Shown here one piece after another: positions 9,984 through 63,966 of a DNA stretch of 64,000 nucleotides (position 1 is its first letter; the number at the start of each line of letters is the position of its first letter). The position numbers were made by a program, and so were the translations under genes. A model generated the notes under the pieces. It did no database searches. It worked only from the letters and a program-made list of their open reading frames with translations, and was not told the DNA's origin. Where the stretch lies: NCBI RefSeq assembly GCF_900046475.1, contig NZ_FCOU01000003.1:345713-409712 (forward strand), written 5' to 3'. The stretch is from Collinsella ihumii (GTDB lineage: Bacteria; Actinomycetota; Coriobacteriia; Coriobacteriales; Coriobacteriaceae).

Positions 9984-10051
9984 GTGCAAATCGGGGGACG
10001 TACCTGCTGCGTGCATTTTTGCACGCAGCAGGTACGTCCCCCGATTTGCAC
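9984..10051. terminator. Perfect 32-bp-arm hairpin, bidirectional terminator candidate
   Basis: Arms 9984-10015 and 10020-10051 are exact complements around TTTT. The stem contains GGGGGACGTACCTGCTG. It sits between the convergent reductase and permease genes and could end both transcripts. A degenerate relative occurs at about 48387-48440. Confidence 0.9.
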
Positions 10052-10989: not shown

Positions 10990-11119
10990 CTCGCGCGCAA
11001 AGTCGCTGATCGGCGCCAGGGGATTGAGCTGCCAGGGCACGCCGTAGGTGATGCCCGGCCCAGACGTACCGTCGGGCAGCGGCTAGAGCGTGAATCACCC
11101 CAAGCCAAGCACATAGAGC
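10990..11119. repeat. Misplaced 130-bp copy of the VanZ-RDD gene
   Basis: Matches 12763-12892 with about three differences (a stop-creating C for A among them). It ends exactly at the adapter junction at 11120. This is a second sign that 10.85-11.16 kb is an assembly chimera. Confidence 0.9.
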
Positions 11120-11157
11120 CTGTCCCTTATACACATCTAGATGTGTATAAGAGACAG
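11120..11157. other. Nextera mate-pair junction adapter
   Basis: CTGTCCCTTATACACATCT followed by AGATGTGTATAAGAGACAG is the doubled 19-bp Tn5 mosaic end, with one mismatch, left by Nextera mate-pair circularisation. It is library sequence, not genome. Confidence 0.97.
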
Positions 11158-12054: not shown

Positions 12055-13059
12055 CTAGAGGTAGTCGTAGGGCATGCGGCGAGCGACGAGGTAGAACAGG
12101 GCGAGCGCAAACCACGCGAACGGGATGAAGAGGTACGCGGTGCCCAGCACGACGAGGCGCGCCAGGTAAAACGCCACGCGCCGCGCACCGGTGCGCTCGC
12201 GAGTCTCGCAGCTCATGCGCACGAAGCCGCCGCCCGGCGTGGAACCCGCGTGCATCCAGGGCAGCACGCCCTCCACCAGCACAAACAGAAGCGCCATCAC
12301 GACGAGCATCCAAGGCGTGCCCGCCAGGTCGCGGGCGATGCCCTCGGGCAGGTTCCATAACATGATGGACACCGCACCGCTCACCACAAGCGACAGCAGT
12401 CCGATGATCAGCGTATCGAGCCAGAACGCCACGCAGCGACGGATGAAGCCCGGCGCATGGGTGACCTCGCCCTCCTCGGCAAGCGCCCCGGGAGGCAGCA
12501 CGCGGGCGAGGGCCGCGGCGCACAGCCAACCCAGCGCCGCCCCGCTCGTGTTGTAGATGAGGTCGTCGACGTCCGCCGTGCGATAGGCATACGGATAGAC
12601 GCCGAACAATCCGGTGCCCTGCGCCGCCTCGATCAGCAACGATGCGGCAAAACCCAAGACGATCGACGGCACGAAGCGCAGACGGAGCAGACGCCCCGCA
12701 ATAAAGCCCAAGGGAACGAAGAACACGACGTTGAAGGCGATCTGCGGCAGGACGGACAGGCCCTCGCGCGCAAAGTCGCTGATCGGCGCCAGGGGATTGA
12801 GCTGCCAGGGCACGCCGTAGGTGATGCCCGGCCCAGACGTACCGTCGGGCAGCGGATAGAGCGTGAAGCACCCCAGGCCAAGCACATAGAGCACCGCAAG
12901 GTACGTCGAGACGACCGATGCGAACTTGAGACGACCGTCGCGATGGTAGAGGTACGCCAGGATCGGGAGCGTCAGCGCAAACGAAGCCGCAGGCCACAAG
13001 GTGAGCGCGAGCAGGAAATTGTCGCTGTATCCCGATAAGAACCGTTTGATGAGGGACAT
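12055..13059 (-). CDS. VanZ-like / RDD-domain membrane protein
   Basis: A 334-residue fusion. The N-terminal half is VanZ-like, with helices around conserved L-Y-P-L-P-D-G, V-F-F-V-P-L-G-F-I-A-G, the S-L-L-I-E-A-A-Q pair and D-V-D-D-L-I-Y-N-T-S-G. The C-terminal half is an RDD domain, with R-R-C-V-A-F-W-L-D-T-L-I. VanZ proteins give low-level glycopeptide resistance in enterococci; RDD proteins are membrane proteins of mixed roles, including ion or osmolyte exchange. The start at 13059 has AGAAGG upstream. A 130-bp stretch of it is wrongly duplicated at 10990. Confidence 0.85.
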   Translation of the reverse strand: MSLIKRFLSGYSDNFLLALTLWPAASFALTLPILAYLYHRDGRLKFASVVSTYLAVLYVLGLGCFTLYPLPDGTSGPGITYGVPWQLNPLAPISDFAREGLSVLPQIAFNVVFFVPLGFIAGRLLRLRFVPSIVLGFAASLLIEAAQGTGLFGVYPYAYRTADVDDLIYNTSGAALGWLCAAALARVLPPGALAEEGEVTHAPGFIRRCVAFWLDTLIIGLLSLVVSGAVSIMLWNLPEGIARDLAGTPWMLVVMALLFVLVEGVLPWMHAGSTPGGGFVRMSCETRERTGARRVAFYLARLVVLGTAYLFIPFAWFALALFYLVARRMPYDYL

Positions 13060-15538: not shown

Positions 15539-16942
<1,404 letters not shown>

Positions 16943-19336: not shown

Positions 19337-20371
19337 ATGGAACGCACCACGCTTTCCCGCCGCACATTTTCCAAAGGGCTCGCCGGCATGGCGGCGCTGA
19401 CCGCTGCCGGCACGCTCGGGCTTGCAGGCTGCGGCGGCGACACCGCCGAGAGCGGCTCCACCTCGGCCTCCGGCGACGGCAAGACCTATAAGATCGGCGT
19501 GCTGCAGCTGACGGAGCACGCCGCCCTCGACGCGGCGAACGACGGCTTCGTCCGCGCGCTCGACGAGTCGGGCATCTCCTACGATATCGAGCAGCAGAAC
19601 GCGCAGAACGACCAGTCCGCCTGCCAGACCATCGCCTCCACGCTGGTCAACGACGGGTGCGACCTGATCCTGGCCATCGCGACGCCCGCCGCCCAGGCGG
19701 TCGCCGGCGCCACGAGCGACATCCCCATCATCGGCACGGCCATCACCGATTTCGCCGCGTCCGGCTTGGTGGACGACAACGACGCCCCCGGCGGCAACCT
19801 GACCGGCACCTCCGATATGAACCCGGTGTCCGACCAGATCGACCTGCTGGCGCAGCTCGTGCCCGACGCCAAGACCGTCGGCCTTCTGTACTGCACCGCC
19901 GAGTCCAACTCCGACATCCAGGTCGCGCTGGCCGAGGAGGCTCTCGACGAGCTCGGCATCGCGCACGAGCGCTACACCGCCTCGAGCTCCAACGAGATCC
20001 AGCAGGTCTCCGAGTCCATGGTCGGCAAGGTCGACGCCGTCTACATCCCCACGGACAACACCATCTCCGCCGGTATCTCCACCGTCACCATGGTGACGAA
20101 CGAGAACAACCTCCCGACGGTCGTCGGCGAGGTCGGCATGGTCGAGGGCGGCGCGCTGGCGAGCGTGTCGATCAACTACGAAGAGCTCGGCTACCGCGCA
20201 GGCGAGATGGCCGTCCAGATCCTCACCGAGGGTGCGGATCCCGCCGAGATGCCCATCGAGCAGATGACTGCCGATGAGTGCGACCTCGTCTACAACCAGG
20301 AGACGGCCGATACGCTCGGCATCGACGTGTCCTTCCTGGCAGATGAAGGCGGAGAGGACGTCTCGGCGTAA
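19337..20371 (+). CDS. ABC transporter substrate-binding lipoprotein (PF04392 type), second paralogue with Tat signal
   Basis: A 344-residue paralogue of the preceding protein, nearly identical over long blocks of the mature part, so the two arose by tandem duplication. Unlike its neighbour, its signal has a twin-arginine motif S-R-R-T-F-S-K (residues 7-13) before the lipobox L-A-G-C (Cys32), which predicts Tat export. The start at 19337 has GAGGAG upstream. A strong terminator follows, so the permease is transcribed partly or wholly from its own promoter. A 48-bp piece (19429-19476) is duplicated inside the sufD fragment by misassembly. Confidence 0.92.
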   Translation: MERTTLSRRTFSKGLAGMAALTAAGTLGLAGCGGDTAESGSTSASGDGKTYKIGVLQLTEHAALDAANDGFVRALDESGISYDIEQQNAQNDQSACQTIASTLVNDGCDLILAIATPAAQAVAGATSDIPIIGTAITDFAASGLVDDNDAPGGNLTGTSDMNPVSDQIDLLAQLVPDAKTVGLLYCTAESNSDIQVALAEEALDELGIAHERYTASSSNEIQQVSESMVGKVDAVYIPTDNTISAGISTVTMVTNENNLPTVVGEVGMVEGGALASVSINYEELGYRAGEMAVQILTEGADPAEMPIEQMTADECDLVYNQETADTLGIDVSFLADEGGEDVSA

Positions 20372-20551: not shown

Positions 20552-20585
20552 ATGAACCCCGGCGAGCATACCCGTCGGGGTTCAT
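20552..20585 (+). promoter_or_regulatory. Second hairpin between binding protein and permease
   Basis: ATGAACCCCG pairs with CGGGGTTCAT over a 14-nt loop, followed by TTGG, 25 bp before the permease start. It could be an attenuator or mRNA-processing site that sets the binding-protein to permease ratio. Confidence 0.5.
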
Positions 20586-20609
20586 TTGGCTGAATAAAGG
20601 AGGAGAGAT

Positions 20610-21539
20610 ATGGGGCTCGCCCTACTTGGCGCCGTATCCCAGGGTATTCTCTGGGGCATCATGGTCCTCGGCGTCTTCATCACCTATAAGCTGCTCGACA
20701 TCGCGGACCTGACGGTCGACGGCAGCTTTGCGCTCGGCGGCTGCGTGTGCGCCGTGCTCGTCGTGGGAGGCGTGGACCCCCTGGTCGCGATCTTGGCGGC
20801 CATGCTCGCCGGCATGGTTGCAGGCGCCGTCACGGGCTTTCTGCACACCGTGTTCGAGATCCCCGCGATTCTCGCCGGCATCCTCACGCAGATCGGCCTG
20901 TGGTCCATCAACCTGCGCATCATGGGCAAGTCCAACACGCCGCTGCTGAAAAACGAGACCATCTTCTCCAAGGTCACCGACATGACGGGCCTGTCCACGA
21001 ACGCCGGCGCCATCGTCGTCGGCCTTGTCGCCGCCGTCCTCATCATCGTCGTGCTCTACTGGTTCTTCGGCACCGAGATCGGTTCCGCCTGCCGCGCCAC
21101 CGGCAACAACGAGGCCATGGTCCGCGCGCTCGGCGTGAACACCAAGGTCACGAAGATGATCGCCCTCGTGCTCTCCAACGGCCTGGTCGGTCTGTCCGGC
21201 GGCCTGATCTGCGAGAGCCAGAAGTACGCCGACATCGGCATGGGCACGGGCGCCATCGTCATCGGCCTTGCCGCCATCGTCATCGGCGAGGTCCTGTGGC
21301 GCGTCCTGCCCGGCGCCAAGCTGCACTCCTTCGGCGGGCGCTTGGCGTCTGCCGTCGTGGGCTCCGTGGTCTACTTCCTCATCCGCGCCATCGTCCTTCA
21401 GATGGGCATGGATGCCAACGACATGAAGCTGCTGTCCGCCATCATCGTCGCCCTCGCCCTGTGCATCCCCGTCGTGTGGGAGAAGTACCAGCTCAAGCGG
21501 TCCTACACCCGTGCCGCACGCTCGGAAGGGGGGCGATAG
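20610..21539 (+). CDS. ABC transporter permease (BPD_transp_2 family)
   Basis: A 309-residue permease with eight or nine hydrophobic helices, of the branched-chain/ribose-type family PF02653. Seen are D-L-T-V-D-G-S-F-A-L-G and G-x-I-x-x-Q-x-G-L-W-S-I-N, and the cytoplasmic coupling region G-S-A-C-R-A-T-G-N-N-E-A-M-V-R-A-L-G-V-N. The start has AGGAGGAGA upstream. It is three bases ahead of the ATPase gene and follows the two binding proteins, giving a complete importer. Confidence 0.93.
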   Translation: MGLALLGAVSQGILWGIMVLGVFITYKLLDIADLTVDGSFALGGCVCAVLVVGGVDPLVAILAAMLAGMVAGAVTGFLHTVFEIPAILAGILTQIGLWSINLRIMGKSNTPLLKNETIFSKVTDMTGLSTNAGAIVVGLVAAVLIIVVLYWFFGTEIGSACRATGNNEAMVRALGVNTKVTKMIALVLSNGLVGLSGGLICESQKYADIGMGTGAIVIGLAAIVIGEVLWRVLPGAKLHSFGGRLASAVVGSVVYFLIRAIVLQMGMDANDMKLLSAIIVALALCIPVVWEKYQLKRSYTRAARSEGGR

Positions 21540-21542
21540 GCG

Positions 21543-22337
21543 ATGCTGAACATCACCAATGTCTGCAAGACCTTCAACGCCGGAACCATCAACGAGAAGC
21601 GCGCGCTGGTAAACGTCAACCTCACGCTTGATGCGGGCGACTTCGTCACCGTCATCGGCGGCAACGGCGCCGGCAAGTCGACCCTCATGAACATGATCGC
21701 GGGCGTCTACCCCATCGATTCGGGCGTCATCGAGCTCGACGGCAAGGACATCTCGCTGCTGTCCGAGCCCGCGCGCGCCAAGTACCTCGGCCGCGTGTTC
21801 CAGGATCCCATGATGGGCACCGCCGCCGACATGCAGATCATCGAGAACCTCGCTATGGCGAAGCGCCGCGGCAAGACCCGTACGCTCGCCTGGGGCGTCA
21901 CCAAATCCGAGAAGGACGAGTACACCGAGCGCCTGGCCGAGCTCGGCCTGGGTCTCGAGAAGCGCCTCACCAGCAAGGTGGGCCTGCTGTCCGGCGGCCA
22001 GCGTCAGGCGCTCACGCTGCTCATGGCGACGCTGACCGAGCCCAAGCTGCTGCTGCTCGACGAGCACACCGCCGCCCTCGACCCCAAGACGGCCTCAAAG
22101 GTGCTCGAGCTCACGGAGAAGATCGTCGGCGAGCACCAGCTCACCACGCTCATGGTCACGCACAACATGAACGACGCCATCCGCCTGGGCAACCGCCTCA
22201 TCATGATGCACGAGGGCCGCATCATCTACGACGTCAAGGGCGCCGAGAAGAAGGCGCTGACCGTCCCCGACCTCCTGCAGAAATTCGAAGAGGTCTCCGG
22301 CGGCGAGCTCGCGAACGACCGCATGCTCCTGTCGTAG
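21543..22337 (+). CDS. ABC transporter ATP-binding protein
   Basis: A 264-residue ABC ATPase. The Walker A is GGNGAGKST, the Q-loop is V-F-Q-D-P-M-M-G, the signature is LLSGGQRQ, the Walker B LLLLDEH and the switch histidine lies in MVTHNM. It powers the adjacent permease. Family context (TrpZ/PF04392 systems) supports small-molecule import. A terminator follows at 22365. Confidence 0.95.
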   Translation: MLNITNVCKTFNAGTINEKRALVNVNLTLDAGDFVTVIGGNGAGKSTLMNMIAGVYPIDSGVIELDGKDISLLSEPARAKYLGRVFQDPMMGTAADMQIIENLAMAKRRGKTRTLAWGVTKSEKDEYTERLAELGLGLEKRLTSKVGLLSGGQRQALTLLMATLTEPKLLLLDEHTAALDPKTASKVLELTEKIVGEHQLTTLMVTHNMNDAIRLGNRLIMMHEGRIIYDVKGAEKKALTVPDLLQKFEEVSGGELANDRMLLS

Positions 22338-22364
22338 CCCAACCGCCCTCACGAGCGCTTCTTT

Positions 22365-22395
22365 CGGCCCCGGTCCCAGCACCGGGGCCGTTCTT
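22365..22395 (+). terminator. Terminator after the ABC importer
   Basis: CGGCCCCGGT pairs with ACCGGGGCCG over a 6-nt loop, followed by TTCTT. Confidence 0.85.
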
Positions 22396-22458
22396 ATTCG
22401 GGCAGAGCGCAAGGCCCGGCGCCTTCGCTCTCCCGCCCCGTCCCATCCAAGGAGGCTT

Positions 22459-23446
22459 ATGCCGAAGCTCATCAAAAGCCGCGAGACGGATGCCGCCGAC
22501 GTTCGCACCGTCGGCATTCCGCGCGGTCTGCTGTACTACCGCTACCACACCCTCTGGCGCACGTTTTTCGAACGCCTCGGCCGCACGGTCATCGTCGACC
22601 AGCCCTCGACGCGCGCCACGTTCGCCGCAGGCGATGCCGTCTCGGTCGACGAATGCTGCCTGGCGTCCAAGCTCTACATGGGCCACGTCCTTGCGCTGCT
22701 CGACGGCCGTGGGCTCGACCCTGCGGGAAACCCCCGTCCCGTCGACGCCCTGTTCATCCCCAGCACCGCCAACTTCGGCCAGCTCAAGCACTTCTGCACC
22801 AAGTTCCAGGCCCTTCCCGACCTCGTGGCCAACTCGCTCCACGAACGCCATCCGCGCATCCTGTCCTTCGCGGTCGACGAGCTCGAAGCGCACATCTCGC
22901 TGCGCGAGGGCCTCATGGAGCTCGGGGCGCGCCTCGGCGAGCGTCCCCGCGACGTGAAGGCGACCATCCATGCCGCCCTGCATGAGCAGCAGCGCGCCGA
23001 GGAGATGCTCGCCCGCGCCCAACGCGACCTGCTCGACAGCATCGAGCGCCTGCCGCGCGCCGGACGCCCACTCACCATCCTCGTGGCGGCACACCCCTAT
23101 GTGGCGCACGACCCCTTCGTCGGCGGCGCGGTCGAAGACGCGCTGCGCGCGGCGGGCGCCGAGGTCATCTATGCCGACGAATACGACCGCGAGCGCGCCT
23201 ACAAGAAGAGCTTCGAGTTCTCGGCGACGCTGCCCTGGATCGTCAACCGCGAGCTCGTCGGCGCCATCCTGGCGCTGCACGACCGCGTCGACGGCATCGT
23301 GATCATGAGCGCATTCCCGTGCGGCCCCGACTCCATGACCGATGACGCCGTGCAGCGCTGCGTCCACGGCAAGCCGATCCTGGCGCTGACCGTCGACGCG
23401 CAGTCGGGCACCGCCGGCGTGGAGACCCGCATCGAGAGCTTCGTCG
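22459..23446 (+). pseudogene. Acyl-CoA dehydratase activase-related protein (DUF2229 type), 3' end lost to artefact
   Basis: About 329 codons of a DUF2229-type protein: VGIPRGLLYYRYHTLW, then cysteine motifs D-E-C-C-L-A-S-K and F-P-C-G-P-D, expected to bind iron-sulfur clusters. A good AAGGAGG site precedes the ATG. The family accompanies ATP-driven activases of 2-hydroxyacyl-CoA dehydratases and double-cubane-cluster proteins. The frame runs straight into mate-pair adapter at 23447, so the true C-terminus is missing. It very likely joined the gene now at 24886 in the real genome. Confidence 0.85.
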
Positions 23447-23484
23447 CTGTCCCTTATACACATCTAGATGTGCATAAGCGACAG
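23447..23484. other. Nextera mate-pair junction adapter (second)
   Basis: CTGTCCCTTATACACATCT and AGATGTGCATAAGCGACAG are the doubled Tn5 mosaic end with three errors. It interrupts the dehydratase-activase gene. Confidence 0.95.
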
Positions 23485-23504
23485 GAGCATACACGCCGGG
23501 GTTC

Positions 23505-23561
23505 AGCACGGAAGAGCGTCGAGCCGGGAATGAGTGTACATCTCGGTGGTGGCCGTATCCT
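23505..23561. other. Illumina TruSeq adapter sequence
   Basis: The sequence matches the reverse complement of the TruSeq universal adapter over 57 bases with about ten errors: GGAAGAGCGTC at 23510-23520, GAGTGTA at 23532-23538 and ATCTCGGTGGT at 23540-23550 are exact. The flanks 23485-23504 and 23562-23662 hold no gene and no recognisable homology; they look like error-rich read ends. Confidence 0.93.
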
Positions 23562-23662
23562 AAATCACCACAACCAGAGACACAGCACACGTATCAGATC
23601 ATACCCTCCCACACTCCTCCGTTTCCTTGGCTATGACGTCTGCAGCGTCTTCGAGTACGGCG

Positions 23663-23700
23663 CTGTATCTTATACACATCTAGATGTGTATAAGGGACAG
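23663..23700. other. Nextera mate-pair junction adapter (third)
   Basis: CTGTATCTTATACACATCT and AGATGTGTATAAGGGACAG, doubled mosaic end with two errors. Sequence to its right belongs to a suf operon. Confidence 0.96.
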
Positions 23701-23994
23701 GCGTCAACGACCTCGACACCCCGGCGCTGTCCGCCTACCAGAAGCGCGCCACCCGCGAGGAGATCGCGGGCGATGTCGCCGCCTCCTTCGAGACGGGCAT
23801 CCATATCGACGCGCGCTCGTATCTGAACTTCCTCGCCGGCAGCACCGTCGTGCTCGCCACCGAGAAGGGAGAGACCGAAAGCGCCGTGGTCCGCGTCGAC
23901 GGCGAGCCCGGCCACGCGGCGGGCGCCTCCGTCGACGTGGTGACTGCCCCCGACTCCACGCTCGACGTCACCATCTCGCTCGATGGCGCCGCTG

Positions 23995-24035
23995 CGGAAG
24001 CTGCAAGCACGCCGGCTTCGGCCTCGGCTTCGAGC
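23995..24035. repeat. 41-bp exact copy of asnS inside sufD
   Basis: Identical to 16819-16859. Its removal (net 34 bp) restores the sufD frame. Confidence 0.95.
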
Positions 24036-24208
24036 TGCGCGTGTTCGCCGGAGCGCGCTCCCGTGTGAACGTCGTCGTCTACGTGACCGCCGACGCGCCG
24101 TTCACCGTGATCGACGATTCCGGCTACGTGCTCGACGAGGGCGCGCGCGTGAACGTCCGCCACATCGTGCTCGGCGGCGGCCGCACCTACACCGGCCTCG
24201 CCTCCGAC

Positions 24209-24256
24209 CTGCGGCGGCGACACCGCCGAGAGCGGCTCCACCTCGGCCTCCGGCGA
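24209..24256. repeat. 48-bp exact copy of the second binding-protein gene inside sufD
   Basis: Identical to 19429-19476, which encodes the lipoprotein N-terminus. Its removal restores the sufD frame. Confidence 0.95.
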
Positions 24257-24697
24257 GGATGCGCGCGACTTCAACTACATCATCCGCCATCGCGGTCGCA
24301 AGACCTTCTCGAACATGGACGCCAACGGCGTGCTGACGGGCACCTCCCGCAAGGTGCTGCGCGGCACGATCGACCTCGTCCACGGGTGCAAGGGCTCCGA
24401 GGGCTCCGAGCGCGAGACGGTGCTTCTGGCCAACCAGGGCGTGGACAACAAAACCGTCCCGACCATCCTGTGCGACGAGGACGACGTGGCGGGCAACCAC
24501 GGCGCCACGATCGGGCACGTGCGTCCCGAGCAGCTGTTCTACCTCGGATGCCGCGGCCTTTCCCAGGAGCAGGCGGAGTCCCTGTTCGTGGCGGCGAAGC
24601 TCGAGGACGCCGCCCTTTCCGCACCGACTGACGACATCCGCGAGAACGTGGTGCGCCTCGGTTCCGCCCTCATCGATGGTTTCGAGGAGGAGATCGC

Positions 24698-24889
24698 ATG
24701 ATCGATATCGACGTGAATCCCTATAAGGCGGATTTCCCGCTGCTTGCGGGCAAGCCCGACATCGCGTTTCTGGACAGCGGCGCCACCGCCCAGCGCCCTG
24801 CCTGCGTGCTCGATGCGCAGCGCGCGTTCTACGAGACCATGAACGCCAACCCGCTGCGCGGCCTGTACTCGCTCTCCGTCGACGCGACA
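24698..24889 (+). pseudogene. sufS: sufS-like cysteine desulfurase, N-terminal fragment
   Basis: 64 codons: an F-P-L-L-A-G segment, then AFLDSGATAQRP, and N-A-N-P-L-R-G-L-Y-S-L-S-V-D-A-T, the conserved start of SufS-type PLP-dependent cysteine desulfurases, which supply sulfur to the SufBCD scaffold. It is coupled to sufD by an ATGA overlap. After codon 64 the sequence changes abruptly into the dehydratase-like gene in another frame, at a short shared string near GCGACAAG. The rest of the roughly 400-residue enzyme, including the PLP lysine and catalytic cysteine, is not here. Confidence 0.85.
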
Positions 24890-25959
24890 AGCATCACGCT
24901 GCGCGCCGCGTCGCCTTCTTCCATTACAGCTATTACGGCCCGGTCTTCAAATACTTTGTCGAGCAGGTCTTGAACGCCGAGTATCTCGACATGGGAGAGC
25001 CGACGCGCCGCACGCTCGAGATCGGCAGCCAGCACAGCAACGACTACGTCTGCGCGCCGTTCAAGCACATCATGGGCGCCTACATCGAGGCGCTCGATGC
25101 CGGCGCGGACGTGCTCATGCAGTTCACGGGCCCGTGCCGTCTGGGGTACTACGGCGAGCTGCAGGAGTCCATCCTGCGCGACATGGGCTACGACTTCGAG
25201 ATGCTGAACTTCGCCAACGTGCCGAGCGGCTCGATGAAGGAGTACGCGGCGTACTGCAAGCGCGTGGTCAATCCGCACCTGTCCATCCCCGCGGGCGTGG
25301 CAAACCTGCTCGCGTGCCTGCACATGGTCGAGCGCATGGACAGCTACAACGACGCCTACCTGGCCCGCGCCGGCTTCGAAGTCGAGCACGGTAGCTTCGC
25401 GGCCGCCCAGAAGCGCTTTTTCCAAGACATGCGCGACGCTACGTGCGCGGCGGACATCGACGAGGCCTACCGTCGCGGCATGGCGGAGCTCGGCGGCATC
25501 GCCATCGACAAGCCGGCGGACCCCGTGCGCGTCGGCATCGTGGGCGAGTATTTCACCGCCCAGGACGCTCCGAGCAACCTGCACCTGGAGGACAAGTTGC
25601 TCGCCATGCACGTCGAGCTCGCCCGCGCGCTCAACATGACGAGCAGGCACCTGCACTACAACGAGCCCAACCTGCGGCGCAGCATCTCCGAGTACGTCGC
25701 CTACGACATGGGGCCCACGAGCACGCTCACCATCGCCGCGGCCAAGCGCTACATGGAGCAGGGGTTCGATGGCATCGTGCACCTCAAGTCCTCGGGCTGC
25801 ACGCCCGAGATCGACGTCATGCCCGTGCTGCAGCGCCTCTCGCGCGACTATCACGTGCCCGTGCTGTTCCTCTCCTACGATTCGCAGACAAGCGATACGG
25901 GTCTGGACACGCGTCTCGAGGCCTTCTACGACATGATCGCCATGCGCAAGGCCCGCTGA
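24886..25959 (+). CDS. 2-hydroxyacyl-CoA dehydratase-like / activase-associated protein, 5' end uncertain
   Basis: About 357 codons beginning near RRVAFFHYSYYGPVFKYFV, a typical N-terminal motif of this family, then TLEIGSQHSNDYVCAPFKH, QFTGPCRLGYYGELQ and KSSGCTPEIDVMP, whose cysteines should hold an iron-sulfur cluster. The family resembles the dehydratase/double-cubane-cluster partner of the ATP-dependent activase encoded next. The start codon is lost at the chimeric join around 24886-24900. Gene order DUF2229 protein, this protein, then activase, suggests one operon for ATP-driven low-potential electron transfer; the final substrate is unknown. Confidence 0.85.
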   Translation, partial: DKHHAARRVAFFHYSYYGPVFKYFVEQVLNAEYLDMGEPTRRTLEIGSQHSNDYVCAPFKHIMGAYIEALDAGADVLMQFTGPCRLGYYGELQESILRDMGYDFEMLNFANVPSGSMKEYAAYCKRVVNPHLSIPAGVANLLACLHMVERMDSYNDAYLARAGFEVEHGSFAAAQKRFFQDMRDATCAADIDEAYRRGMAELGGIAIDKPADPVRVGIVGEYFTAQDAPSNLHLEDKLLAMHVELARALNMTSRHLHYNEPNLRRSISEYVAYDMGPTSTLTIAAAKRYMEQGFDGIVHLKSSGCTPEIDVMPVLQRLSRDYHVPVLFLSYDSQTSDTGLDTRLEAFYDMIAMRKAR

Positions 25960-26021
25960 TCGCAGCCTGCCCCGCGTTCCGAGCGCGACGGCGCCGCCCG
26001 ATCGCGACGAAAGGAAGAACC

Positions 26022-26984
26022 ATGATCGAAGCCTATCTGGGAGTCGACACCGGCTCCATTTCCACCAAGGGCGTCATCATCGACGCCGACAAGAACATCA
26101 TCGCCCGCTCCTACCTGTGGACCGAGGGTGATCCCACCGATGCCGCCCGGCGCGTGGTCGACGAGCTCGCTTCGCAGATCGACACCTCCGAGGTCCAGGT
26201 CGTGTCCGTGGGGACGACCGGGTCGGCCCGGCGCCTGGTGGGCGCCATGCTCGACGCGCAGGTGATCAAAAACGAGATCACCGCGCATGCGGTGGGCACC
26301 ACCTTCCTGCATCCCGACGTCCGCACCATCCTGGAGATCGGCGGCCAGGACTCCAAGATCATCTGCGTCGAGGGCGGCATCGCCGTCGACTACGCCATGA
26401 ACACGCTGTGCGCCGCGGGCACGGGCTCGTTTCTGTCCAGCCAGGCGCATCGTCTGGGCGTCGAGGTCGAGGAGTTCGGCGCCATCGCCCTGTCGAGCAA
26501 GAAGCCCGCGAACATCGCCGCGCGCTGCACGGTCTTCGCCGAAAGCGACCTCGTGCACAAGCTGCAGGTCGGCTATTCCAAAGAGGACATCATCGCCGGA
26601 CTGTGCCGCGCCGTGGCGACCAACTATCTCAACAACGTGGGCAAGGGCAAAAAGATCGTCGCGCCGGTGGTGTTCCAGGGCGGCGTATCCAAGAACATCG
26701 GCGTGGTGCGCGCCTTCGAGGACGCGCTCGGCATGGAGGTCCTCGCTGACCCCGACGGCCATCTCATGGGCGCGTTCGGCGCCGCGCTGCTTGCGGCAGA
26801 CGTGCCGACCTCGCAGCGCCGCCCCTTCGCCTTCGATGTCGACGACTTCGAGTTCCGCACGCGCGAGGTCGTCTGCAGCCGCTGCGCCAACCACTGCGAA
26901 ATCATCTGCGTCTACAAAGATGACGACCTGATCGACTCGTGGGGCAATCGCTGCGACCGCGGAGCGATTCGAGTGGGTAAATAA
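26022..26984 (+). CDS. Acyl-CoA dehydratase activase (BcrAD/HgdC-type ASKHA ATPase)
   Basis: A 320-residue ASKHA-fold ATPase: G-V-D-T-G-S-I-S-T-K-G phosphate loop, GTTGSAR, EIGGQDSK, NTLCAAGTGSFL with a cluster cysteine, and A-A-R-C-T-V-F-A-E-S-D with the second. A C-terminal CSRCANHCE motif adds further cysteines. HgdC/BcrA-type activases form homodimers that bridge one [4Fe-4S] cluster and use ATP to push electrons onto dehydratases or double-cubane proteins. The start at 26022 has GAAAGGAAG upstream. It is the intact member of the cluster. Confidence 0.93.
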   Translation: MIEAYLGVDTGSISTKGVIIDADKNIIARSYLWTEGDPTDAARRVVDELASQIDTSEVQVVSVGTTGSARRLVGAMLDAQVIKNEITAHAVGTTFLHPDVRTILEIGGQDSKIICVEGGIAVDYAMNTLCAAGTGSFLSSQAHRLGVEVEEFGAIALSSKKPANIAARCTVFAESDLVHKLQVGYSKEDIIAGLCRAVATNYLNNVGKGKKIVAPVVFQGGVSKNIGVVRAFEDALGMEVLADPDGHLMGAFGAALLAADVPTSQRRPFAFDVDDFEFRTREVVCSRCANHCEIICVYKDDDLIDSWGNRCDRGAIRVGK

Positions 26985-48386: not shown

Positions 48387-48497
48387 GTGCAAATTGGGGA
48401 CGTACCTTCCGCTTGCACTTTTGCAAACTGGGGACACCCCTTCTGCTTCTGCGTCTGGGATGGGTTGTTTGGGGACGGGTTCATTTCAACCCATCCC
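48387..48497. repeat. Degenerate GGGGACGTACC hairpin plus ATGGGT...ACCCAT repeat, copy 2
   Basis: GTGCAAATTGGGGACGTACC and its broken complement at 48387-48440 are a decayed version of the hairpin at 9984. ATGGGTTGTTTGGGGACGGG...ACCCAT at 48460-48494 is a member of the 35-bp family. The 820-bp gap 48190-49009 otherwise holds no gene. Confidence 0.7.
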
Positions 48498-48812
48498 GTC
48501 GCCCGCGCCCGTCTCCCACGGCCTGCCCTCTGCCATTAGGGATGGGCGCTCATGGCAGACAAGTTGCTCGACCGACCGGTGAGCCCTGCTTCGATGCTCG
48601 AGCCCCCCGACGAAGGTCCAGCGTTCCGGATCCGCCTCGATTTCATGACTGGTTCATGACCGTTTCATGACTTGATGCGAATGGAATACAGCGACAGGGA
48701 TCTTTTCGCGCCCACTTCACCATATTTACTGGCGATTTACTGGCACTTCTTATTAACACTGGCAACAAAAAAAAACAGGCCAGACCGTTTACCGTGTCTG
48801 ACCTGCTGTTTT

Positions 48813-49575: not shown

Positions 49576-49693
49576 AGCCTATGTCTCCGGTGGGTTTTAC
49601 TTTGGGCGATTTTTTATGCACGGTCTTTCTCGCCAACTGCGGGTTTATCAGGGCTTTATACATGGAATTCCGCCATGCCAACGGGCCGGCAAA

Positions 49694-49755
49694 ATGGGTC
49701 GAAACGAACCCGTCCCCAACCAACCCAGAAACGAACCTGTCCCCAACCAACCCAT
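49694..49755. repeat. ATGGGT...ACCCAT family, copy 4 (tandem)
   Basis: ATGGGTCGAAACGAACCCGT, CCCCAACCAACCC, then a second AAACGAACCTGTCCCCAACC-AACCCAT. Two units head to tail, four bases from the NYN gene stop. Confidence 0.8.
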
Positions 49756-54810: not shown

Positions 54811-54879
54811 CGTTCATGAAAAAGCGCCGAACCGGGACGGCGGGATGGGTTGAAACGAACCCGTCCCCAAGCAACCCAT
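54811..54879. repeat. TTCATGAA half element and ATGGGT...ACCCAT copy 5
   Basis: CGTTCATGAAAAAGCG at 54811-54826, then ATGGGTTGAAACGAACCCGT-CCCCAAGCAACCCAT at 54845-54879, ending just before the ispD stop codon. Confidence 0.8.
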
Positions 54880-54882
54880 CGG

Positions 54883-55581
54883 TCAGCCGCGGGAGCGCAG
54901 CAGGAATTCAACCAAGGGCAGGTCTTCGGGCAGCGTGACCTTCAGGTTGTCGCGCGGAGCCTCGACGCAGCGGACGCGGCCGCCGGCGCGCTCGACGATC
55001 GATGCGTCATCGGTGCCCACGAAGCCCTCCGCGCGCACGGCGTCCTCGGCACGGCGGAGCGCCTCGACGCGGAAGATCTGGGGCGTCTGCACGGTCCAGA
55101 AGCGGCTTCGATCGGGCGTGTCGAGAATCACTCCGTCTTCGACGAGCTTGAGCGTGTCGACGGCGGGCTGTCCGCACACCACGCCGTCGAGCTCGGCGTC
55201 CTCACGCAGGACGCGCACCGCGCCTTCGATGACCTCTGGGGTGATGAGGGGGCGTGCGCCATCATGGATCGCCGCGAAATCACAGGTCTTTGGCACCTCC
55301 GCCAGACCGGAGCGCGTGGAATCCTGCCTGGTGTCGCCCGCAGGGGCAAAACTCACGGGCACCGTGAGGTCGAACGGATCGACCGCGCGGCGGCGCACCT
55401 CCTCGGTGCGCTCAGCCGGGCAGACCACCACGATATGGCCGACCGAGGGCGCGGCGTCAAACGCCAGAAGCGACCAAGTCATGAGCGGACGTCCCGCGGC
55501 ATCGATGAGCTGCTTGCCGCCGGGGTTGCCGAAGCGCTGCCCCGATCCGCCGGCTACGATGACCGCGCACACGTCGCCCAT
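54883..55581 (-). CDS. ispD: 2-C-methyl-D-erythritol 4-phosphate cytidylyltransferase
   Basis: A 232-residue IspD: A-V-I-V-A-G-G-S-G-Q-R-F-G nucleotide-binding loop, H-D-G-A-R-P-L-I and DDASIVERAGG. It makes CDP-methylerythritol in the MEP pathway. The start ATG at 55581 overlaps the end of disA nearly completely, so the two are co-translated; the longer frame is rejected. Confidence 0.94.
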   Translation of the reverse strand: MGDVCAVIVAGGSGQRFGNPGGKQLIDAAGRPLMTWSLLAFDAAPSVGHIVVVCPAERTEEVRRRAVDPFDLTVPVSFAPAGDTRQDSTRSGLAEVPKTCDFAAIHDGARPLITPEVIEGAVRVLREDAELDGVVCGQPAVDTLKLVEDGVILDTPDRSRFWTVQTPQIFRVEALRRAEDAVRAEGFVGTDDASIVERAGGRVRCVEAPRDNLKVTLPEDLPLVEFLLRSRG

Positions 55582-60078: not shown

Positions 60079-60237
60079 GAAACACCCTTCCGCAGCACAG
60101 CACCCGACCAGCCAACGTAGCAAAAACGGCGCCCGCGCAGCCGCAGACGCCGTTCGAAAGGCCGTCGTTATCAGGATCTCGCAGCAGGGAGCCTGCAGGC
60201 CGCCCGGCACGCCCCTACGAGCGCGCTCCGGCGCCCC

Positions 60238-60310
60238 GATGTGTCTAAGAGACAGGCCCAGACCTCGGAGCCCGACCCGTCCTCCATGCCCTCGCTGTCC
60301 TGTCTCTTAT
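60238..60310. other. Nextera mosaic-end remnants
   Basis: GATGTGTCTAAGAGACAG (18 bases, one error) at 60238 and CTGTCTCTTAT (11 bases) at 60300 flank a 44-base insert. The join between the repeat-rich region and clpC is therefore suspect. Confidence 0.9.
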
Positions 60311-62879: not shown

Positions 62880-63044
62880 GCGAATACCTCTTACGTGCTA
62901 ACACTTGTTCGTTCGACCAGTGTGGTACCCAAAGTTGCACTATCTTAACCGAAACGTGAAATTTTAAAAGAAGCCCGTGGAAACACCGGCTAAAAACTCC
63001 TCGACGACATAACGAACGGGGTAATCGGTACCGGTCGCGTCGGC

Positions 63045-63079
63045 ATGGGTTGAAACGAACCCGTCCCCAGCCAACCCGT
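63045..63079. repeat. ATGGGT...ACCCAT family, copy 7
   Basis: ATGGGTTGAAACGAACCCGT-CCCCAGCCAACCCGT; its last base is the first of the ribokinase stop codon. Confidence 0.78.
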
Positions 63080-63966
63080 TATGCGGGCGGGCGGGCGCCC
63101 AGATAGGTCGTGGCGAGAGCCGACGCCTCGGTTGCACAGGATATGATCTGCTCCAGCGGAAGACCGGCGGCAAGGCCGGTGACCAGCGCGCCGATGTAGG
63201 TGTCTCCGGCACCCGTGGTGTCGACCACCTCGACCTTCGGCGGCACGGATCGAATCGGGCCGCCGTCGCCGAGCACCATGGATCCCTTGGCGCCGAGCGT
63301 CAGCGCGACGGTGCGCACGCCCCACGCCCTCATGAGCTCCATCGCGCGAAGCGCGCTCTCGTCGTCCACGGGAGCCGTGCCCGTGATGACCTCGCACTCG
63401 GTCTCGTTCAGGCACGCGACGTCGACGTGCCGCCACACCTCGACGGGCAGCTCGCGCGCCGGAGCCGGGTTGAACACCGTGCACATCCCGCGCCGGTGGG
63501 CGCACACCAGGGCCGCCAGCGTGGCCGCCACGTCGCACTCCAGCTGGACGAGGAACACCGACCCCGCTCCGTCGCCGCCGACCAGGCCGTCGAGCGCCCG
63601 GGCGACCGCATCGGCATCGAGCAGGTGGTTTGCCCCCGGGTCGAGCACGATGCGGTTGTCGCCCTCGCAGCGCGTGATGACCGCCACGCCCGTGGTGGCC
63701 CCTTTCGCTTCGGTCACATGCGAGCACCCGACCCCGTCCGCCCGCAGGCCCTCGACGAGCCGCTCGCCGAACACGTCGGCGCCGACTGCCCCGATCATGT
63801 CCACCTCGGCGCCCATGCGCGCGGCGGCCGACGCCTGGTTGGCGCCCTTGCCGCCCGCGCCGATGAGGAAATCGCCGCCCGTGATGGTCTCGCCCGCCCG
63901 CGGCATCCGCTCGCATGCGATGCTGAGGTCCATGTTGAGGCTGCCGAACACGATGACTCGTCCCAT
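63079..63966 (-). CDS. rbsK: Ribokinase (PfkB family)
   Basis: A 295-residue PfkB sugar kinase: FGSLNMDLSIACERMPRAGE, then GAGGKGANQASAAARMG, and the anion-hole signature DTTGAGDTYIGAL with catalytic Asp. Ribokinase feeds ribose 5-phosphate into metabolism, often salvaging ribose from nucleosides. It begins 9 bp after the end of another minus-strand gene, so it is in an operon. A related nucleoside-sugar kinase cannot be excluded. Confidence 0.9.
   Translation of the reverse strand: MGRVIVFGSLNMDLSIACERMPRAGETITGGDFLIGAGGKGANQASAAARMGAEVDMIGAVGADVFGERLVEGLRADGVGCSHVTEAKGATTGVAVITRCEGDNRIVLDPGANHLLDADAVARALDGLVGGDGAGSVFLVQLECDVAATLAALVCAHRRGMCTVFNPAPARELPVEVWRHVDVACLNETECEVITGTAPVDDESALRAMELMRAWGVRTVALTLGAKGSMVLGDGGPIRSVPPKVEVVDTTGAGDTYIGALVTGLAAGLPLEQIISCATEASALATTYLGARPPA

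Follow-up and report, generated by a model that had tools for sequence, protein, structure and literature searches.

The stretch from position 23447 to about position 24888 of the window (the whole 64,000-nucleotide stretch of DNA that was analysed, C3:345713-409712 in the 2.84-Mb, 35-contig assembly of Collinsella ihumii) is almost certainly an assembly artefact of an untrimmed Nextera mate-pair library. Judged from the sequence, two real genes are broken on paper only, and the artefact carries no new biology. The original prediction had named an incompletely trimmed Nextera mate-pair library, an attribution strongly supported by the doublets, the outward TruSeq tail and the geometry of displaced flanks. 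It had also placed the damage within 250 bp, which is too short: the false stretch actually spans about 1.44 kb (23447 to ~24888), most of it an adapter-free copy of sufD-sufS. The features of the locus are as follows.

22459-23446, + strand: genuine DUF2229 gene of the 2-hydroxyacyl-CoA dehydratase/activase family (Pfam PF09989, E = 3.3e-36)
23447-23484, no strand: mosaic-end doublet 1, 3 mismatches in 38, read as a mate-pair circularisation junction
23485-23504, + strand: 20 bases read as the other end of the circularised fragment, native at 20564-20583 (+), 18/20 identical, 2.9 kb upstream
23505-23562, + strand: TruSeq universal adapter, reverse complement, 48/58 identical in an ungapped alignment
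23563-23619, no strand: unmatched stretch; best match in the window 11 bases, and 23566-23619 without another match in its own genome
23620-23662, + strand: 43 bases preceding doublet 2, 93% identical to C8:62139-62181, where the same doublet follows
23663-23700, no strand: mosaic-end doublet 2, 2 mismatches, with miscalls identical to those of C8:62182-62219
23701-24888, + strand: misplaced copy from contig C8 of most of sufD and the 5' part of sufS, ~95% identical, with foreign patches
23986-24035, + strand: 50-base patch in the sufD-sufS copy, 98% identical to window 16810-16859
24209-24256, + strand: 48-base patch in the sufD-sufS copy, 100% identical to window 19429-19476
24889-25959, + strand: genuine HGD-D dehydratase-component gene (Pfam PF06050), ~62 N-terminal codons missing
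26019-26984, + strand: activase ATPase gene (BcrAD_BadFG; Pfam PF01869, E = 7.5e-52, profile positions 1-271 of 271)

The doublets predicted at 23447 and 23663 were located exactly at 23447-23484 and 23663-23700. Each consists of two 19-base Tn5 mosaic ends set head to head over 38 bases with zero bases separating them. Doublet 1 is made up of 23447-23465 (−) with one mismatch and 23466-23484 (+) with two, doublet 2 of 23663-23681 (−) and 23682-23700 (+) with one mismatch in each. No mosaic-end match was found in 100 dinucleotide shuffles of the window, from which the expected number is zero. The half at 23466-23484 shares the same two miscalled letters with C2:101105-101123, part of a doublet far away in the assembly; this is perhaps chance, a common error tendency or one common read.

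The 178 bases that separate the two doublets are composed of mate ends, adapter and unmatched bases. The original prediction of a 57-base TruSeq match at 23505 holds for the presence of the adapter and not for its exactness, 23505-23561 being a degraded copy with 48 identities. Elsewhere in the window the best score is 30, and none of 20 shuffled windows exceeds 31; the first 13 bases of the adapter, allowing one mismatch, are absent from the whole window. Directly before the adapter, the 20-base mate end matches at 18/20, a score that one of 300 shuffled 20-mers also reached when both strands of the whole window were scanned. Mismatches climb along the read, from 3/38 in the doublet through 2/20 in the mate end to 10/58 in the adapter, beyond which nothing is recognisable; the numbers are small, and such a rise is what the tail of a poor read would show. 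The unmatched stretch 23563-23619 is probably base-calling noise beyond the adapter. A survey of TruSeq residues at ~40 doublets (156 flank-by-adapter tests) gave a clear result at three, namely the target and one each on contigs C10 and C13, and a weak one at a fourth, on C12. The TruSeq tail is oriented outward from the junction, with the adapter lying where the insert is short.

The whole assembly holds 83 mosaic ends (≤3 mismatches), compared with 0 for the reversed pattern. The likelihood that these words resemble adapters by chance is vanishingly small: the shuffles of the window and the reversed control already refute it, and the adapter at 23505 was found with 48/58 identities vs ≤31 in shuffles. 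Within the window and 31 regions picked around genome-wide mosaic-end matches, 41 doublets with ≤9/38 mismatches were found, the loosest of which may be chance.

At the junction of a circularised fragment, the doublet has the far end of that fragment on its left and the near end on its right. If a doublet is such a junction, its left flank should therefore recur downstream, or its right flank upstream, on the same strand and at library distance. Matches were kept at E ≤ 1e-4, dropping those <200 bases from any doublet or ending >25 bases from the junction. Of the 39 that passed, 19 lie on another contig than their doublet; the remaining 20, contributed by 20 doublets, are same-contig matches, and 19 of these fit the predicted strand and sense, at distances of 1,693-7,180 bases. 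The single misfit, the right flank of C10:147372, points in the wrong direction; it is enclosed by two doublets separated by 168 bases and is at the same time the flank to the left of the second. Matches on other contigs are mostly repeats or <95% identical, a strong exception being the right flank of C12:355678, which matches C8:73880-73947 at 98.5% over 68 bases. With the distance and junction filters off, flanks read backwards gave 2 matches in 81 queries, and of 154 stretches taken 1-2 kb away, 11 had a copy on the same contig. Under the full filters 21 of the 41 doublets lack a same-contig displaced flank, including both target doublets, whose mate ends are short or degraded and which were therefore tested separately. 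Doublet 1 then agrees with the prediction by its 20-base mate end. Doublet 2 does so only by a 34/42 match, the C8 version of its preceding 43 bases having its best match at C8:65561-65602, 3.4 kb downstream on the same strand. This test of geometry is a cheap, read-free means by which adapter-like words in deposited genomes can be recognised as mate-pair junctions.

The same observations bear on a real insertion of a Tn5-type element or mini-transposon in the living strain. Since the 19-base ends are those of Tn5, a Tn5-derived tool could in principle leave them, yet the ends of each pair abut, with no transposase or cargo between them, and the listed junctions (≤9 mismatches) show no 9-base target duplication, overlaps being 0-6. 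Such an element would also have to occupy ~40 sites in the genome, adjoin a TruSeq adapter and show, at 19 of 20 places, flanks shifted by kilobases in a single sense. We consider a living insertion extremely improbable.

The sequence itself shows the first steps of the mate-pair reading. The fragment 20564-23446 received a 19-base mosaic end on each side and was circularised, which placed the 38-base doublet between bases 23446 and 20564. What was recovered of it stops 20 bases past the doublet, so that the read enters the TruSeq adapter and then noise. After the noisy tail comes a second junction sequence, one also found in sufD on contig C8, and with it the 1.27-kb mosaic copy of sufD-sufS, the true gene following afterwards. 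The gap itself was presumably a low-coverage place of ~220-235 bases, across which a de Bruijn assembler or a gap-closing program may have joined the pieces, the 38-base doublet acting as a shared, repeat-like word.

The sufD-sufS block carries most of the false sequence. Positions 23620-24888 (1.27 kb) are a 95% copy of C8:62139-63416, which comprises sufD and the start of sufS, and the copy includes the C8 doublet with both of its miscalls. The 43 bases at 23620-23662 are probably the mate end of the second junction. On C8, sufD is itself broken at C8:62139-62219, where the 43 bases and the doublet stand in place of ~14 residues; the gene is intact in four relatives. A pure insertion of the C8 doublet between contiguous bases was considered and dropped, the sufD genes of these four relatives showing that ~14 native residues have been replaced.

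A true second sufD-sufS at this locus, with adapters merely added close by, might account for an identity to C8 of 95% and not 100%, and for one patch in which the window copy is closer to relatives than C8 is. Against this, the copy starts with C8's junction and both C8 doublet miscalls, and it contains four TGA codons in its matched frame. Its differences from C8 are clustered in patches and not spread, and two of these patches match other genes of its own genome. The corresponding site in the relative G060 holds dehydratase genes only. A genuine second copy is very unlikely. In the patch that favours it, it is the C3 copy, not the C8 copy, that agrees with relatives, so both copies look composite.

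Under the artefact reading, the chances are about even that gap filling planted adapter-free patches of ~50 bases, taken from genes within a few kb, into coding sequence here and, through one or more patches of other origin, into the C8 source as well. If gap filling did so, such assemblies would carry silent mosaic errors invisible to adapter screening, part of which the geometry of displaced flanks could detect.

The native layout of the locus was taken from one close relative, G060 (89%); among 38 further genomes G060 alone is close, the other 37 having homologues ~23-31% identical or none. In G060 the DUF2229 gene (an ORF of 368 aa, from TTG) and the HGD-D gene (417 aa) adjoin, intact and with no insert, and the activase ATPase (322 aa) lies downstream of both. 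Over the DUF2229 gene the DNA is 80% identical to G060 up to 23452, and the alignment restarts at 24907. The HGD-D protein is 89% identical to that of G060. The DUF2229 gene loses about its last 14 codons, the G060 gene ending 14 residues past ...ESFV; in the record it runs instead into a false fusion ORF of 455 aa (22459-23826). Judging by the reading frame, genuine sequence probably restarts by about 24889 (range ~24889-24907). Relative to G060, ~220-235 native bases have been replaced, covering the end of DUF2229 and the start of HGD-D. The missing native stretch was sought in the genome with G060 DNA and no convincing copy was found elsewhere; the search returned 45 matches of ~14-56 bases (best E = 0.001) and works at ~80% identity, so that a short fragment could escape it.

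It had been claimed that the dehydratase-activase gene is destroyed. The locus is indeed broken, and the wording needs correction: DUF2229 is hit at its 3' end, HGD-D at its 5' end, and the activase ATPase gene is open over its full domain, so that two neighbouring dehydratase-family genes are cut at their junction. With ~220-235 bases of native sequence lost as well, the three adapter segments account for only part of the difference from the true sequence, and a product from the real locus is expected to be ~1.2 kb shorter than in the record.

A third doublet in the window lies at 11120-11157. The flank to its left, 10990-11119, repeats 12763-12892, 1.7 kb downstream, at 97.7% identity, as predicted for a circularisation junction. 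The sequence of 10990-11119 is found downstream in the relatives G060 and G013, on another contig in G021 and G016, and has no match in G008. Given the displaced copy, the region left of this doublet is misassembled too. Elsewhere in the window, a mosaic end at 60237-60255 (2 mismatches) is followed at 60300-60310 by an inverted one of which only the first 11 bases are present; the two are 44 bases apart with the genomic side inward, and 60237-60310 may be a very small tagged fragment that stayed behind between genes. At C2:101946-101983, a degenerate junction outside the cut-off (11 mismatches in 38) has the same 21-base direct repeat on both sides.

For users of this record the matter is one of data quality. 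Gene calls are suspect at ~40 places, examples being the 455-aa fusion ORF, the apparent second sufD and the broken sufD of C8, and claims of gene loss or duplication in the species drawn from this assembly are untrustworthy without the reads.

Comparable residues occur in other records. Mosaic ends with ≤2 mismatches are present in 6 of 58 genomes, the present one included, and in none of the other 52. The relatives G021, G034 and G054 have exact mosaic ends, some coinciding with the very start of a contig, so that these public assemblies too probably contain library residue; G024 and G032 each show a single mosaic end with 2 mismatches. The exact 38-mer was found in at least 111 stretches of genome_contigs, with 16 organisms (hand count) among the 80 matches listed, in 5 of 72,556 plasmid records and in 7 stretches of viral_contigs; it was found in 0 of 50,697 phage records and 0 of 20,395 E. 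coli records.

In likeness to the Nextera mate-pair junction adapter, the doublets have the same 38 bases up to 2-3 miscalls, an outward TruSeq tail, and flanks that are the two ends of one few-kb fragment. The present case differs in that the TruSeq adapter is only 83% intact and a copy of an unrelated locus fills the gap. According to the library description in PMC7357533, the 38-mer served there as ring adapter for a circularised library of ~4 kb and was ligated after ultrasound shearing. For the gut bacterium Hugonella massiliensis, the protocol passage of the genome report names the Nextera Mate Pair kit, MiSeq 2x251 sequencing and fragments of 1.5-11 kb (PMC5552949); assemblies were made there on trimmed and untrimmed reads, and gaps were reduced with GapCloser (PMC5552949). 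A protocol of this type could be the source of such an error, although it was applied to a different genome and its protocol passage does not mention the error (PMC5552949).

Two further repeats in the window were recorded. A dispersed repeat of ~36 bases around ATGGGTTGAAACGAACCCGTCCCCA lies at 48455-48505, 49688-49738, 54838-54885 and 63040-63082; it occurs in both orientations, has more copies on other contigs, and looks like a REP-type element. A near-perfect hairpin of 68 bases spans window 9984-10051 and is repeated at 97% identity at C2:11608-11675.
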